IMG/VR virus record: IMGVR_UViG_3300025483_000071 | Span: 1 to 24,632 of that record | DNA length: 24,632 nt | Strand: one strand, 5' to 3' | Source: a virus | In this document: one piece after another, positions 8,843-14,009 of the stretch | How the letters are laid out: each line of letters starts with the position of its first letter | Numbering within the stretch: the stretch's first letter is position 1 | The notes under the pieces: model-generated | What the model was told of the DNA's origin: nothing | Seen by the model: the letters and a program-made list of their open reading frames with translations, nothing else | The model's database searches: none | Program-made: the position numbers and the translations under genes

Positions 8843-11800
8843 TTACCCCTTGAATTTGTCTAAATCTTTTTTAAGTTCTTTAACTGCTTCGATGAGAAGA
8901 CCAACCAAGTTTCCGTAAGATACAGACTTAATTTTATCTTCGCTATCATCTTCAATAACAGCTTCTGGAATGATTTGTTCAACTTCTTGAGCAATGAGAC
9001 CGATTCTTCTAACATCAGGATCGTGTTTCTTATGGAAGTAAACACCTCTCATAGCTTCTACTTTATCTAGAGCATTTTGAATTGTTTCGATGTTTTCTTT
9101 CAATCTAATATCAGAGTTTGTTGTAACGTCACCAGTTGCAGTAAAGTTACCACCTCCAGATCCTAGACCAAATGTAAACCATGCTGTTCCATTTGCTTGA
9201 TTCTCAATCGAGAATGATTGAACTGCAGTAGTTGCATCAAACAAGAAGTTACCTGTCCCAGACTCGTAACCGAGTTTCATTACAGCGCCAGTACCGAATG
9301 TGGCATAAGTGTCATTCGGGAAGTTCATGTCTGATGTAATACCTGTTACGGATCCTGTTGATGTTGTACCATTAACTGTAAGGTTGCCACCAAGCTCTAG
9401 GTTTTCAATATAAAGTGTATCTACATCTGATTGATAGTAGAAGTTAGATTCACCGCCTGGGTTTGGACCAGTAGTACCAAGTAGAGGTCTCTGCTCTGCG
9501 CCACCTTCAAACATTGCAATAAAGAGTGCAGTATCTTGAAGAGCAGTTGTGTGAACGTTTTGTAGGTTACCTACGCCACCTTCATTACCGAAACCTTGCG
9601 TACCTTGTACACCTTGGAAGCCAAGATCACCTTGGAAACCTTGCGTACCTTGTAGACCCTGCAAACCTGCTCCAGTGAAACCTTGGAAACCAAGATCACC
9701 TTGGAAACCTTGAGTACCCTGAAGACCCTGAAGACCTTGAGTACCACCGCCGCCATCGAAACCTTGGAAACCGTACCAACCTTGGAAACCTTGAGCACCT
9801 TGGCCACCACCTTCACCAGGACCACCGGTGAAACCTTGTACACCGTCAGCACCTTGGAAACCATAGTAACCTTGAACACCGCCTGTACCAGCGTCGCCAG
9901 GAGTACCTTGGAAACCTTGATAGCCTTGAGTACCTTGGTTACCGATGGCACCAGCTCCAATAAAGCCTTGGTTACCTTGTACACCTTGGTTACCTTCACC
10001 ACTAAAACCTTGGAAACCTTGATATCCGTCAAAGCCTTGGAAACCTTGAGTACCAACACCAGGTCCACCTTGTATACCGGTGAAACCTTGGAAACCAGGA
10101 TCACCAGTGAAACCTTGGAAACCTTGAGCACCTTGGTTACCGTCGCCTGGCGCACCTTGGAAACCTTGAGCACCAGGATCACCGTCAAAGCCTTGGAAAC
10201 CTTGGACACCTTGTGTACCTTGGAAACCAGTACCTGAATCACCTTGGAAACCTTGAGTACCCTGTGCAGCTTGAGCACCTTGAACACCCTGTGTACCTTG
10301 GTTACCTTGAATACCAGTACCACCGATACCGTCTAATCCAGCAAAACCTTGGTAACCTTGGACACCTTGACCAGTTATACCTTGGTAACCTTGTACACCT
10401 TGGTAACCTTGGATACCATCTCCACCAATAATACCGGCATCACCTTGGAAACCTTGTACACCTTGAGTACCTTGTGGACCCTGCGCACCAACAGCACCTA
10501 AAGTACCTGAATCACCTTGGAAACCTTGTACACCTTGAGTACCTTGTGGACCTTGTGTACCAGCCCCAGTGAAACCTTGAATACCTTGAGTACCTTGTAG
10601 ACCTTGAATACCAGCAGGACCGGGAGCGCCTGAATCACCAATGTCACCAGTTCTAGCAAATGTGATTGTGATATCTTCGTCATTAGCGAACGTACCACCT
10701 ACAGAACCAGATACATATGAAACATCGATAGCAAAATAACCTGAAGCCTCTGTTACTCCACTGATAGTATACAGTTGGAAGTTAGCAGGTGTTTGCTTTT
10801 CAGTGATCTTAACATGACCTTTAATGGTACTTGTAGAATCATTAATAGTTCTTAGATATGGCTGAATGTCTGTGAAGTTATCATCACGATCATCCATTAA
10901 AAGAAGTGTAGCAGAAGATCCGTTTGAGTTATTGATCTTAGCGTAACCAACACCAGGATCTGATGTGGCTGTGTTTGTTGTCCAAGTGTAATCGAATGTT
11001 ACACCACCGAAGCTACCTGTTGAACCTTGAGCACCATCAGCACCTTGGAAACCGTACGAACCTTGCGCACCCTGCGGACCAACTTGGCCTGGGAAGCCTT
11101 GTACACCTTGGAAGCCAAGATCACCTTGGAAACCTTGTGCGGCTTGGAAACCTTGTATACCTTGAGTACCTTGGAAACCATACCAGCCTTGCGGACCTTG
11201 TACACCTTGGGAACCCTGAATACCTTGTGGACCAACTTCAGAAGTAGTAATATTTCCACCCATTGCGCCGTGTACTGTACACTGATAATACAACGAGTCT
11301 GGAGCATTAAACGGAACTCTAAATACTAGCTTACCGTTTTGTGTACCATTATTCGTTACACCTGTATTGTATGCTGCACCGCCATTAGACAATCTAATCT
11401 CGAATGGATGGCCTGGTGCATTGATATCAAATACGTATGTAAATCCTCTTAGAAGATGCAGATCAGGATCATTTACTCCGTCAATTACATAGTCTGTGGA
11501 GCCGTTATTTGTAACTGTAAATTCACGAGAACCTTCGAAGCCTTGCATACCTTGGAAGCCTTGAATACCCTGCACACCTTGATATGCTTGAGGCCCTTGT
11601 ACACCCTGAACACCCTGTGTACCTTGTGTACCTTGTACACCTTGGATACCTTGCGTACCTTGGGCACCTTGTGGACCAATAGGACCGCCCGGAATAAAGT
11701 TAATAATAGCAAATTCGTCGTGTGTATCAACAACTTCTGTTTGCCAGTTTGTAACTGTACTTTCGATATTTGTTACGTCAAAGTAACCCCAGTTTTTAGC

Positions 11801-13585
11801 AACTGAATCCCAAGTAAAGTTAGAGAATGTGTAAGCAACGAAATGATGACCGCCAGGACCGTCGCCATCTCCGCCTGCATGCGAAATAACGATATGACCT
11901 TTTGGTGTACCCGGAAGTCCAGCTAAATAATCTAGAATCTCATCGATCTGATTTGAATACTGATCAGAAGGAGTGTCATCTAGAATAATTCTTGTTGCTT
12001 GAGTAGGATCTACGTTATCAAATCTAAAGTTACTTGTACCAGGATCTGCTGTAGTAACACCACTATCGAATGCCCACTCGAATGTTAATCCGCCGTGTTC
12101 GCCATGTGTACCTTGTACGCCTTGGAAACCTTGATAGCCTTGAGCACCTTGAGTACCGAATCCACCTTGGAAACCATACCAGCCTTGCGGACCTTGGACA
12201 CCTTGATCCCCTTGAATACCTTGGAAGCCACGATAACCTTGAATACCTTGTGTACCTTGAACACCCTGATAAGCTTGTGGGCCTTGTACACCCTGAACAC
12301 CTTGATCTCCTTGTACGCCCTGTGCGCCTTGGTCTCCTTGGAAACCTTGAGTACCTTGTGCTGATTGATAACCTTGAACACCCTGTGTACCTTGCCAACC
12401 TTGGAAACCTTGTGTACCTTGTGGTCCTTGAATACCTTGGAAACCACGATCACCCGAAATGTCAAATGCGACAACGAGTGGATAAGAAGTATATGTGCTA
12501 GGCGGTGTAGTTAGTTCTGTAAAATCTTCTTTAACGGCTGTACCAGAAACGTATGTTACATCAAATTCCCAATAACCAGTCGCATCTGTAATTTCTTGAA
12601 CTGAGAAGATAACATACTTTGATGGAAAATCTCTTTTTGTAAATTTTAAATAACCTTTATTTGTTGACGATGCTTGATCCATCGCCTGATAAAGACCTTC
12701 AGCACTGATACCATGATTGTCTTCGTCGTCAAACCAGATCTGAGTAACTGCTGTGAAATCATCAGTACTTGCAGATGCTTCGTTAAAGATAACACCACCG
12801 AGGTTGGGATCGGCTTCTGTAATATCGTTAAGAAGATTATATGTAAGTACTAGACCAGAGTCAGCCCCTTGCCAACCCTGAATACCGTACCAACCTTGAA
12901 TACCTTGAACACCTTGATAAGCTTGAGGTCCTTGCACCCCTTGTACGCCTTGGTTGCCCTGTATACCTTGAATACCTTGCACACCTTGGTATGCCTGTGG
13001 ACCTTGAGTACCTTGGATGCCTTGGTTACCTTGTACACCTTGGATACCTTTATAGCCTTGGATACCTTGCGCACCTTGTTGCCCGCGGAAACCACGAGAA
13101 CCTTGAATACCTTCTTCACCAATTTCACCTTGCCAACCTTGGGTTCCCTGATTACCAGTAAAACCTTGTACACCACGGAAAGAACCGATGTTTACCCAAG
13201 TACTTGCGCCAACATAGATCCAAAGTTCATCATCAGCTTCGTCAATAACACCATCACCAATGGTAGGAGTTGGAAAGGCGGTGTTCAATGTGGCCTGGGG
13301 GTCGCCACCGGAATCTACATCAGCAACAGATCCGATGATTGTAAATCCCGGACCATAATCACCTTGTAAACCTTGAACACCTTGGATACCTTGGGTGCCT
13401 TGAGAAGTTGCAGCCGCTGCATCAAAAAGTACCCAGTTAGTACCATCTGAGTAGCGCATCTGCCCAGCAGTTGTATAGACAATAGATCCTTCGTGTGGCG
13501 CAGGATCAAGCGTCGTATAATCTTGTGGTACGCCCTGTCCTAAAAAAGTTGCGCGACCTCTAAGGCTCTTAAATCTACTCGACAT
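8843..13585 (-). CDS. Collagen-like phage fibre with cupredoxin-like domain and C-terminal S74 self-cleaving chaperone, 1580 aa
   Basis: I choose ATG 13585 because GAGG at 13592-13595 lies six bases upstream; an in-frame GTG at 13597 would add four residues but has a poorer site. Numbering from that ATG: residues 1-60 hold an [22 protein letters not shown] element; collagen-like Gly-X-Gln tracts cover about 62-76, 137-239, 380-497, 636-685, 785-858 and 983-1332. Three related globular insertions lie at about 242-379, 497-632 and 859-981. A cupredoxin-like domain lies at 687-783. After the last collagen tract come a ~150-residue beta region ([12 protein letters not shown]) and the peptidase S74 domain from Ser1491 (SDIRLKEN) to the end. 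S74 domains trimerise fibres and then cut themselves off; the Ser and the RLKEN context are present. The predicted product is a long trimeric fibre, plausibly with a host-contact role. It overlaps the 144-aa gene by 11 bases and is followed by a terminator. Confidence 0.95.
8846..9115 (-). other. Peptidase S74 intramolecular chaperone domain
   Basis: The last 90 residues of the collagen-like fibre. The start SDIRLKENI fits the family's catalytic serine box, followed by GVYFHKK, then [18 protein letters not shown], then [18 protein letters not shown], the order and spacing known from endosialidase-type chaperones. In that family the domain guides trimer folding and is released by cleavage just before the serine, so the mature fibre would end near residue 1490. 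Confidence 0.9.
9590..10639 (-). repeat. Main collagen-like tract (about 115 Gly-X-Y triplets)
   Basis: A 350-residue run of mostly unbroken Gly-X-Y triplets, with Gln in the Y position in most ([10 protein letters not shown] type). At DNA level it is an imprecise 9- and 18-base repeat of codons for Gly, aromatic/Val/Thr and Gln. Some stretches replace Gln by Asp, Gly or Thr (GFDG, GFTG, GEGGGQG). Proline is scarce and mostly appears as GDPG or GAPG. Confidence 0.93.
10643..11011 (-). other. Globular insertion C in the collagen-like fibre
   Basis: About 123 residues between collagen tracts. Core elements: [75 protein letters not shown]. The domain type recurs in many phage collagen-like fibres. 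It is one of three related copies in this protein. Confidence 0.8.
11012..11233 (-). repeat. Collagen-like tract between the cupredoxin-like domain and insertion C
   Basis: About 74 residues of Gly-X-Y triplets, including [10 protein letters not shown] and one Gly-to-Ala step in GFQAAQG. It links two globular domains and probably sets their spacing along the fibre. Confidence 0.88.
11237..11527 (-). other. Cupredoxin-like domain with type 1 copper-site pattern
   Basis: About 97 residues flanked on both sides by collagen-like triplets. The order is [16 protein letters not shown], then [13 protein letters not shown], then [10 protein letters not shown], then [17 protein letters not shown], then [10 protein letters not shown]. 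Possible copper ligands are His726 in GHPF and Cys769, His772 and Met775 in CTVHGAM. The Cys-x2-His-x2-Met spacing is that of amicyanin, and the upstream His is 43 residues before the Cys, close to the usual distance in the family. Copper binding is inferred, not shown. Confidence 0.78.
11531..11680 (-). repeat. Collagen-like tract before the cupredoxin-like domain
   Basis: About 50 residues of Gly-X-Gln triplets ending in [10 protein letters not shown]. It contains one GPQAYQG step, where Ala takes the place of the obligatory glycine. Confidence 0.88.
11690..12097 (-). other. Globular insertion B in the collagen-like fibre
   Basis: About 136 residues related to insertions A and [49 protein letters not shown], then a longer loop with [11 protein letters not shown], and [10 protein letters not shown]. 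The glycine- and histidine-rich loop is unique to this copy. Confidence 0.8.
12095..12448 (-). repeat. Collagen-like tract between insertions A and B
   Basis: About 118 residues of Gly-X-Y triplets with Gln in most Y positions. It contains GYQSAQG and GPQAYQG, both with the triplet glycine replaced, and one [10 protein letters not shown] aromatic element. Confidence 0.9.
12449..12862 (-). other. Globular insertion A in the collagen-like fibre
   Basis: About 138 residues: [25 protein letters not shown] is split by loops, then [11 protein letters not shown], then KGYLKFTKR, then [22 protein letters not shown]. The order matches insertions B and C. Confidence 0.8.
12869..13177 (-). repeat. First long collagen-like tract
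   Basis: About 103 residues of Gly-X-Y triplets just after the N-terminal domains. Unlike later tracts it includes charged triplets (GEIGEEG, GSRGFRG, GYKG) and two GPQAYQG steps. Confidence 0.9.
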
Positions 13586-14009
13586 CGTCTTCCTCACTTT
13601 GACCTAATGTGAACGACAACGTAGCATCTATTGATAAGTTTGCAGATGCTTTAATTTCCAACAAATCACCTGATGCATAGAATTGTCCGTTTAAAGGCAA
13701 AGCGAAGGTGTCATATGCCGGAATCGGCATGTTTCTTATTAAGTAAAATTCCTGGTTTAAGTTGTATCTATGTGTACGTACATCTACATTTACAGTAACT
13801 GCTGAGAAATTACATAAAATCAAAGGACTGATAACTTCGCCTACACCCGGTTCAACCACATTCGAGCCGCCAAAAACAAGCTCAGGAACTTCGTAGTTGG
13901 GTACTTCGATAAGGGTTTGCCAGTTCGTCGTTAACGTTAAATTCTTGGCGACCGGTTTTGCGTCGGGCGCCTGCGAGGTCGAAATTGTTGTAATATCATT
14001 GTTTGCCAT
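13575..14009 (-). CDS. Small beta-rich phage structural protein, 144 aa, unknown role
   Basis: ATG 14009 shares one base with the stop TAA of the giant gene (TAATG), and its own stop overlaps the start of the collagen-like fibre by 11 bases, so the three genes are tightly coupled. The sequence is beta-rich: [19 protein letters not shown], then [16 protein letters not shown], then [32 protein letters not shown] and a final LSFTLGQ followed by an acidic tail EEDDVE. This resembles small jelly-roll or beta-sandwich proteins encoded next to fibre genes in T4-like marine phages, but I cannot name a family. There is no signal peptide or transmembrane segment. A role as connector, cap or assembly partner between its two huge neighbours is inference from gene order only. 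Confidence 0.93.

Follow-up and report, generated by a model that had tools for sequence, protein, structure and literature searches.

A predicted cupredoxin domain with a candidate type-1-like metal site in a collagen-like phage tail fibre

The fibre gene and its insert

The window, i.e. the whole stretch of DNA that was analysed, is a virus record of 24,632 bases. It contains five genes for proteins of more than 600 amino acids, all of which lie on the minus strand and match PHROG families of tail-fibre, baseplate or virion-structural proteins. Two small genes lie between these large ones; one matches an unknown family (3.9e-20) and a fibre-assembly family (7.9e-16), and the second has no significant PHROG match. 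For a neighbouring gene of 10.5 kb, no near DNA match was found among 50,697 phage records. As protein, its last 2663 codons matched 336 records, every one with less than 60% identity, and these records are named Synechococcus, Prochlorococcus, cyanophage or marine. Because of these matches of the neighbouring gene product, the phage is probably a T4-like marine myovirus related to cyanophages. The features of the gene under study are as follows.

8843..13597, minus strand: parent gene with GTG start, encoding a collagen-like (Gly-X-Gln) tail fibre of 1584 amino acids (ORF, Pfam, PHROG)
11237..11530, minus strand: cupredoxin-like domain, fibre residues 690-787, 98 residues (translation, AlphaFold2, PDB fold matches)
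11408..11410, minus strand: first His ligand candidate H730, in GHPF (translation, register with PF00127, conservation)
11345..11371, minus strand: family signature YNTGVTNNG, residues 743-751 (alignment; position counted from the translation)
11279..11281, minus strand: Cys ligand candidate C773 (translation, register with PF00127, conservation)
11270..11272, minus strand: second His ligand candidate H776 (translation, register with PF00127, conservation)
11261..11263, minus strand: axial Met candidate M779 (translation, register with PF00127, conservation)
8957..9115, minus strand: C-terminal intramolecular chaperone (Peptidase_S74, chaperone of endosialidase), residues 1495-1547 (Pfam; coordinates computed from residue numbers)

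A preliminary description had placed a cupredoxin-like domain at 11237-11527. These coordinates are correct: the minus-strand translation is a single open stretch of 97 residues, and the plus-strand reading contains two stops. Residue numbers are higher by four than in that description, which counted from the ATG of M5 and not from the GTG start, so that the ligand candidates H730, C773, H776 and M779 correspond to its His726, Cys769, His772 and Met775. The translation also bears out the His in GHPF, the Cys-x2-His-x2-Met motif in CTVHGAM, the spacing of 43 between the first His and the Cys, and the Gly-X-Gln tracts on either side of the domain.

The fibre is a chain of Gly-X-Gln tracts with several globular inserts and Peptidase_S74 at its end. 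In Pfam, it matches Collagen (4e-77 over 13 stretches) and Peptidase_S74 (4e-16), and many PHROG tail-fibre families match it as well. Three further globular inserts are encoded on the minus strand at 12440-12859, 11678-12091 and 10622-10999 (residues 247-386, 503-640 and 867-992); none has a Pfam match, as Pfam gave collagen and S74 only. The third of these is related to the first (E 1.3e-15) and to the second (E 2.8e-6), and comparison of the first with the second gave no significant similarity.

C773 is the sole Cys in the fibre, and the motif C-x2-H-x2-M occurs a single time in the window (six frames, open stretches of at least 80 codons). A chance origin of the ligand pattern was rejected, since H-x(38-48)-C-x2-H-x2-M arose once when the whole protein was shuffled 20,000 times and once in as many shuffles of the domain.

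Predicted fold and relation to known cupredoxins

Modelling of the domain by AlphaFold2 with 56 sequences yielded a confident all-strand structure (pLDDT 97.9, pTM 0.89). In a Foldseek search against the PDB, this model matched 91 chains at E<=1e-3. Of the 50 matches listed, 49 carry the title of a copper protein; no molecule is named in the title of the remaining one (3cvd). Rusticyanin heads this list (E 1.2e-5), which also includes AcoP, amicyanin, CuA-domain proteins, pseudoazurin, plastocyanin, purple cupredoxin, nitrite reductases, laccases and other multicopper oxidases. In VIA-align, all 50 matches listed are copper proteins, and rusticyanin is again at the top (Z 10.8, 1.9 Å over 90 of 98 residues), a rank that it shares with the cupredoxin domain of a nitrite reductase and with two-domain laccases. 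Thus, the predicted model is a Greek-key beta-sandwich that matches solved cupredoxins, in agreement with the fold proposed in the preliminary description. An Ig-like or other phage beta-sandwich was rejected, since cupredoxins make up the listed fold matches and the ligand positions co-vary. The BFVD search found the same fold in proteins predicted for several cyanophages, pithoviruses and marseilleviruses. Those of the pitho- and marseilleviruses are 'Beta-sandwich proteins' (A0A481Z7Q7, A0A481Z6J5, A0A481YVH3 and others) with fold matches of E 5e-8 to 2e-6.

The fold prediction was repeated with a ligand-poor profile of 47 rows, consisting of 43 copies with none of H, C and H and 4 partial copies, and with a first row lacking all three residues. 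The resulting model (pLDDT 97.3) again matches rusticyanin (Z 10.2) and multicopper proteins; the fold call is therefore independent of the ligands. This agrees with the caution, voiced at the outset, that the fold might be retained without a metal site, as the ligand-less copies are still predicted to be cupredoxins.

At the level of sequence, the domain is outside PF00127 and outside the amicyanins when judged by curated cut-offs. Neither the window domain nor the virus record has a PF00127 match at the curated Pfam cut-off of 21.2 bits; within the phage alignment of 56 rows, PF00127 gave a weak match in 6 rows (best E 0.03), and one cellular relative scored 17.9 bits, under the same cut-off. 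The amicyanin model TIGR02657 of NCBIfam scored the window domain with 12.8 bits against a cut-off of 110.2 (E 0.12), and no curated Pfam or NCBIfam cut-off is passed by the domain. A match to an NCBIfam cytolysin model (E 0.065), far below its cut-off, was taken as chance. Weak matches to an At5g54830-like plant domain were found in 31 of the 56 rows, the best with E 3.8e-5, and with E 0.028 for the window domain; they may reflect a common relative. Searches of PDB-chain sequences with the single domain or the 56-row profile returned weak matches only and no close relative with a solved structure. With both queries, the best match was the Glr2806 protein, which is not named a copper protein (E 0.023 for the domain, 0.0052 for the profile), followed in the profile search by laccases (0.016, 0.26) and auracyanin (0.29).

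A comparison profile was made from 13 bona fide PF00127 proteins drawn from 28 loci, and hhalign aligned the phage profile to it with E 1.1e-6 and probability 90.9 (E 2e-5 and probability 53 with other settings), placing H, C, H and M each in register with the known cupredoxins in the order His...Cys-xn-His-xn-Met. This match was gone when the four ligand columns were masked (E 0.5), so that kinship by sequence alone is carried by the ligands. The ligand-poor profile of 47 rows likewise did not match PF00127 (E 0.94), although it matched the ligand-bearing phage profile with E 5e-45. Two lines thus tie the family to cupredoxins, namely the ligands by sequence and the fold by prediction, and by predicted fold and ligand order the domain is a member of the cupredoxin superfamily.

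In single-domain cupredoxins such as rusticyanin and plastocyanin, the ligands follow the order H...C..H..M. The phage domain shares this order and, in its model, the cupredoxin fold with rusticyanin, AcoP, pseudoazurin and plastocyanin, to which identity in structural alignments is 14-21%. These four proteins are periplasmic or lumenal electron carriers, whereas the phage domain is a fibre insert with the signature YNTGVTNNG of its own. Few stretches of the family are as conserved as this signature, which ligand-less copies retain in part (Y, G, V, N, G). Amicyanin is defined by a C-x2-H-x2-M ligand loop and has an upstream His followed by Asn. The same spacing and upstream His are found in the phage domain with its CTVHGAM loop (Foldseek match to 3ply, E 9.3e-5), and several of the 13 PF00127 proteins also have this loop. 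In contrast to amicyanin, the phage domain has Pro after the first His, a position occupied by Asn in 8 and by Pro in none of the 13 PF00127 proteins.

Occurrence of the domain and conservation of the ligands

As a module, the domain recurs in marine phages, where fibre and baseplate proteins contain it. Tblastn detected it in 345 of 50,697 phage records, 339 of which are cyanophages by name (268 Synechococcus, 52 'Cyanophage' and 19 Prochlorococcus phages; the others are 4 marine, 1 uncultured and 1 Pelagibacter phage). For 60 matches listed, which are spread over the ranking, the annotation is baseplate wedge tail fibre connector in 48 cases and baseplate wedge subunit and tail pin in two; the other ten are annotated as tail-fibre, structural, peptidase-S8 or hypothetical proteins or are unannotated. 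The same domain corresponds to positions 308-408 of the 412 positions of PHROG 677 (E 1.5e-30). Proteins of this family, the gp9-type connectors of cyanomyoviruses, have about 410 amino acids and carry the domain at the C-terminus, while in the window it is an insert in a collagen-like fibre of 1584 amino acids. The rest of the PHROG 677 profile has no match in this fibre, to which a single C-terminal stretch (307-408) aligns. The domain is also present in the podoviruses P-GSP1 and P-SCSP2 and in pelagiphage HTVC028P. Phage P-SSM2 has four copies across three reading frames, two of them within a putative proximal tail fibre. In S-SSM4, an additional copy is encoded by the gene following the gp9-like one (L452, ORF piece in frame +2, domain at 331-456); it is more divergent and has H-C-H-M. 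The 96-position model of the 56-row alignment did not report this copy in a whole-record search. Because of this second copy in the next gene, one baseplate may carry the domain in two different proteins.

Relatives in cellular genomes are few, with 5 loci found in a genome collection by one peptide pattern and with the domain in 5/149, 1/144 and 7/148 genomes of three phylum samples (seed genomes counted in). Some of the copies in bacterial genomes are very probably phage DNA that was binned with bacteria. One contig in a bacterial MAG (FZLS01000008.1, Rhodobacteraceae bin, L240) is phage-like and encodes a collagen-like fibre of 1565 amino acids, and genome G002 includes several contigs that resemble phage DNA and bear fibre genes of this kind. 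Other bacterial carriers appear to be secreted proteins (L242, L364, L366, L367, L465, L466, L467). In L242, the domain lies behind three CHRD repeats, and in L366 it is accompanied by fn3 and a sorting-signal match slightly below cut-off. A further relative that appears secreted, L244, is a protein of 149 amino acids with an N-terminal hydrophobic stretch and Cys. The secreted-looking cellular relatives retain the H, the Cys and the following His, and a few copies in genome G002 (L327, L335/L375) lack the full H, Cys, His set. It is possible that the secreted-looking bacterial proteins represent a cellular source or a recipient of the phage module.

The preliminary description had argued that the intact ligands speak against pure scaffold drift, and that free loss of the ligands in homologues would tell against the site. 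In a scan seeded with the window domain, with peptide patterns that in part cover the C and H positions, H-C-H-M was present in 58 of 60 distinct copies. In a wider set of 241 distinct full copies, H, C and H are all present in 182, all absent from 54 and partly present in 5; ligand-less copies are over-represented in this count and in that of 171 copies used below, since each of the later scans started from a ligand-less copy. The 241 copies come from viral contigs (213), bacterial genomes or MAGs (15, some of which are phage DNA) and isolate phages (13); 73 partial stretches had been dropped from 629 aligned ones, and 49 short or gapped copies were left out of 290 distinct ones. A search of IMG/VR with the window domain gave 531 relatives, the best 80 of which were retained. 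In isolate phages, H, C, H and M are retained in all 16 copies read, namely 13 copies in 12 loci picked for variety, a non-random choice, and three further P-SSM2 copies; the gp9-type isolate copies read likewise have H-C-H-M. Thus, homologues do not freely lose the ligands, and in the wider set their loss is near all-or-none.

The three columns also change together. In 171 copies, the columns with at least 85% conservation form 435 pairs, and the three formed by the first His, the Cys and the second His show the highest correlations of departure (0.96, 0.95 and 0.91), followed by a value of 0.59. In a tree calculated without the ligand columns, the number of shared branches of change ranks Cys and second His first (9 shared of 13), the two His second, and first His and Cys fifth among 861 pairs; this ranking used midpoint rooting and four other roots, and the best tree whether supported or not. 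The best tree has only 9 changes between the full and the empty state, few of them on supported branches, and a tree-based sign test for independent co-loss is underpowered, as it offers only 3-4 supported pairs, typically with 2 in the same direction, 0 opposite and the rest equal.

These data bear on the view that the phage proteins have borrowed the cupredoxin fold for adhesion or spacing, the ligand residues then being relics or contributing to packing and hydrogen bonding, and the virion binding no metal. It can draw on the 54 copies without all three residues, on the ligand-poor profile, for which the fold is likewise predicted, and on the Met, which is retained in 42 of the 59 copies without the full triad. 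However, the full set prevails both in the window-seeded copies and overall, and packing residues would be expected to drift singly, whereas partial copies are rare and the three columns change together. This view is therefore considered unlikely, and the near all-or-none loss supports the earlier argument against scaffold drift. Since Met is common in copies lacking the triad, it is not diagnostic. Outside the domain, Cys is rare (1.93 per 1000 amino acids), and every Cys lies inside the domain or domains in 81 of 246 distinct ORF pieces of at least 500 amino acids, with overlapping loci of one contig counted apart. Judged by ligand columns and models, there probably is a genuine metal site, and one that can be separated from the fold.

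Putative role of the metal site in the virion

Quite probably, the region encodes a cupredoxin domain in which a type-1-like site of His, Cys, His and Met is complete and selectively maintained; this domain is carried as a module in a collagen-like, presumably trimeric fibre. From the ligand set and the modelled fold, we infer that the domain would bind copper (Cu(I)/Cu(II)). The cytoplasm of the host is reducing and contains little free copper. As the particle would be built in this compartment, the metal would be loaded after lysis. Once bound, it would clamp the strand of the first His to the loop with Cys, His and Met, where the barrel ends. Less certainly, the domain held in this way might serve in the virion as a rigid, protease-resistant module for adhesion or spacing and would not carry electrons. 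Since ligand-less copies are predicted to retain the fold, the metal would have to add something beyond folding. Most simply, this could be stability outside the cell or in seawater, or a surface for host contact.

A real site for another natural metal (Zn, Ni, Co, Fe), or one that is a Cu(I) sink only, would have no blue copper centre. His-Cys-His sites bind several metals, and the computed results do not tell metals apart; in a cupredoxin fold, however, an upstream His together with a C-x2-H-x2-M loop is the canonical copper arrangement, and it is in register with copper proteins, so that such a site appears improbable. A redox-active, true plastocyanin-like electron carrier on the virion is a very remote prospect, since the ligand set is the same as in electron carriers but the domain sits in fibres and baseplate connectors with no electron donor or acceptor apparent, and Pfam and PHROG indicated no partner redox domain in the 1584-residue fibre.

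A parallel from other phage fibres concerns iron. According to PMC11705849, iron is bound through HxH motifs in the tail fibre gp37 of T4, and the same is proposed for cyanophages and others (Trojan Horse hypothesis), with octahedral iron sites in the trimer and a suggested role in attachment and marine metal cycling. These fibres and the window fibre can be likened as metal-carrying phage tail fibres, the metal of the latter being predicted only; they differ in that the iron site is octahedral and formed in the trimer, whereas the candidate site consists of His-Cys-His-Met in a single domain. The window fibre itself has no HxH, as no two of its 16 His are two residues apart.

A more far-reaching and doubtful idea is that marine phages, above all cyanomyoviruses with this domain at the end of their gp9 connector, are copper metalloparticles, in which type-1-like sites would be loaded after lysis and the metal used at the host surface. 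Such particles might dock to copper-handling outer-membrane proteins, in analogy to the Trojan Horse proposed for iron, or the fibre might have a copper-dependent switch of stability. If this were true, virions would represent a copper ligand pool in seawater; and if virions carry copper at all, copper would join the debate on phages and ocean metals, which is about iron in the literature examined.

No account of virion cupredoxins was found in the open literature searched; subscription papers and preprints are outside this scope, so the absence of such an account is unproven. In a survey table of PMC3567143, the cupredoxin-like fold is given as containing no capsid proteins. The copper-protein subject of PMC8115048 is viral NirK and not virions, copper in the cyanophage papers PMC9964418 and PMC10665884 refers to electron-microscope grids or film, and PMC2984593 describes petE (plastocyanin) as carried by cyanophages. 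A predicted fold and a probable metal site are now assigned to a virion domain of marine phages, the carriers of which are recorded, where examined, as tail fibre, baseplate connector, structural protein, peptidase S8, hypothetical protein and the like. Since isolates with named hosts exist, the presence of copper in virions of tailed phages is directly testable. Type-1 copper is recognized by a band at ~600 nm and small EPR hyperfine splitting.

The family would offer a cupredoxin as a structural module with a separable metal site, for which the natural ligand-less copies are controls. As the ligand-less group is sizeable, the metal would be dispensable in some phages. In a large group of ligand-less copies, loci L378-L450, all three ligands are replaced in nearly all copies, with the types S/S/Q, L/S/E and Y/N/Q, and these loci share the context FTVPQDAPDTLYY and a similar position.
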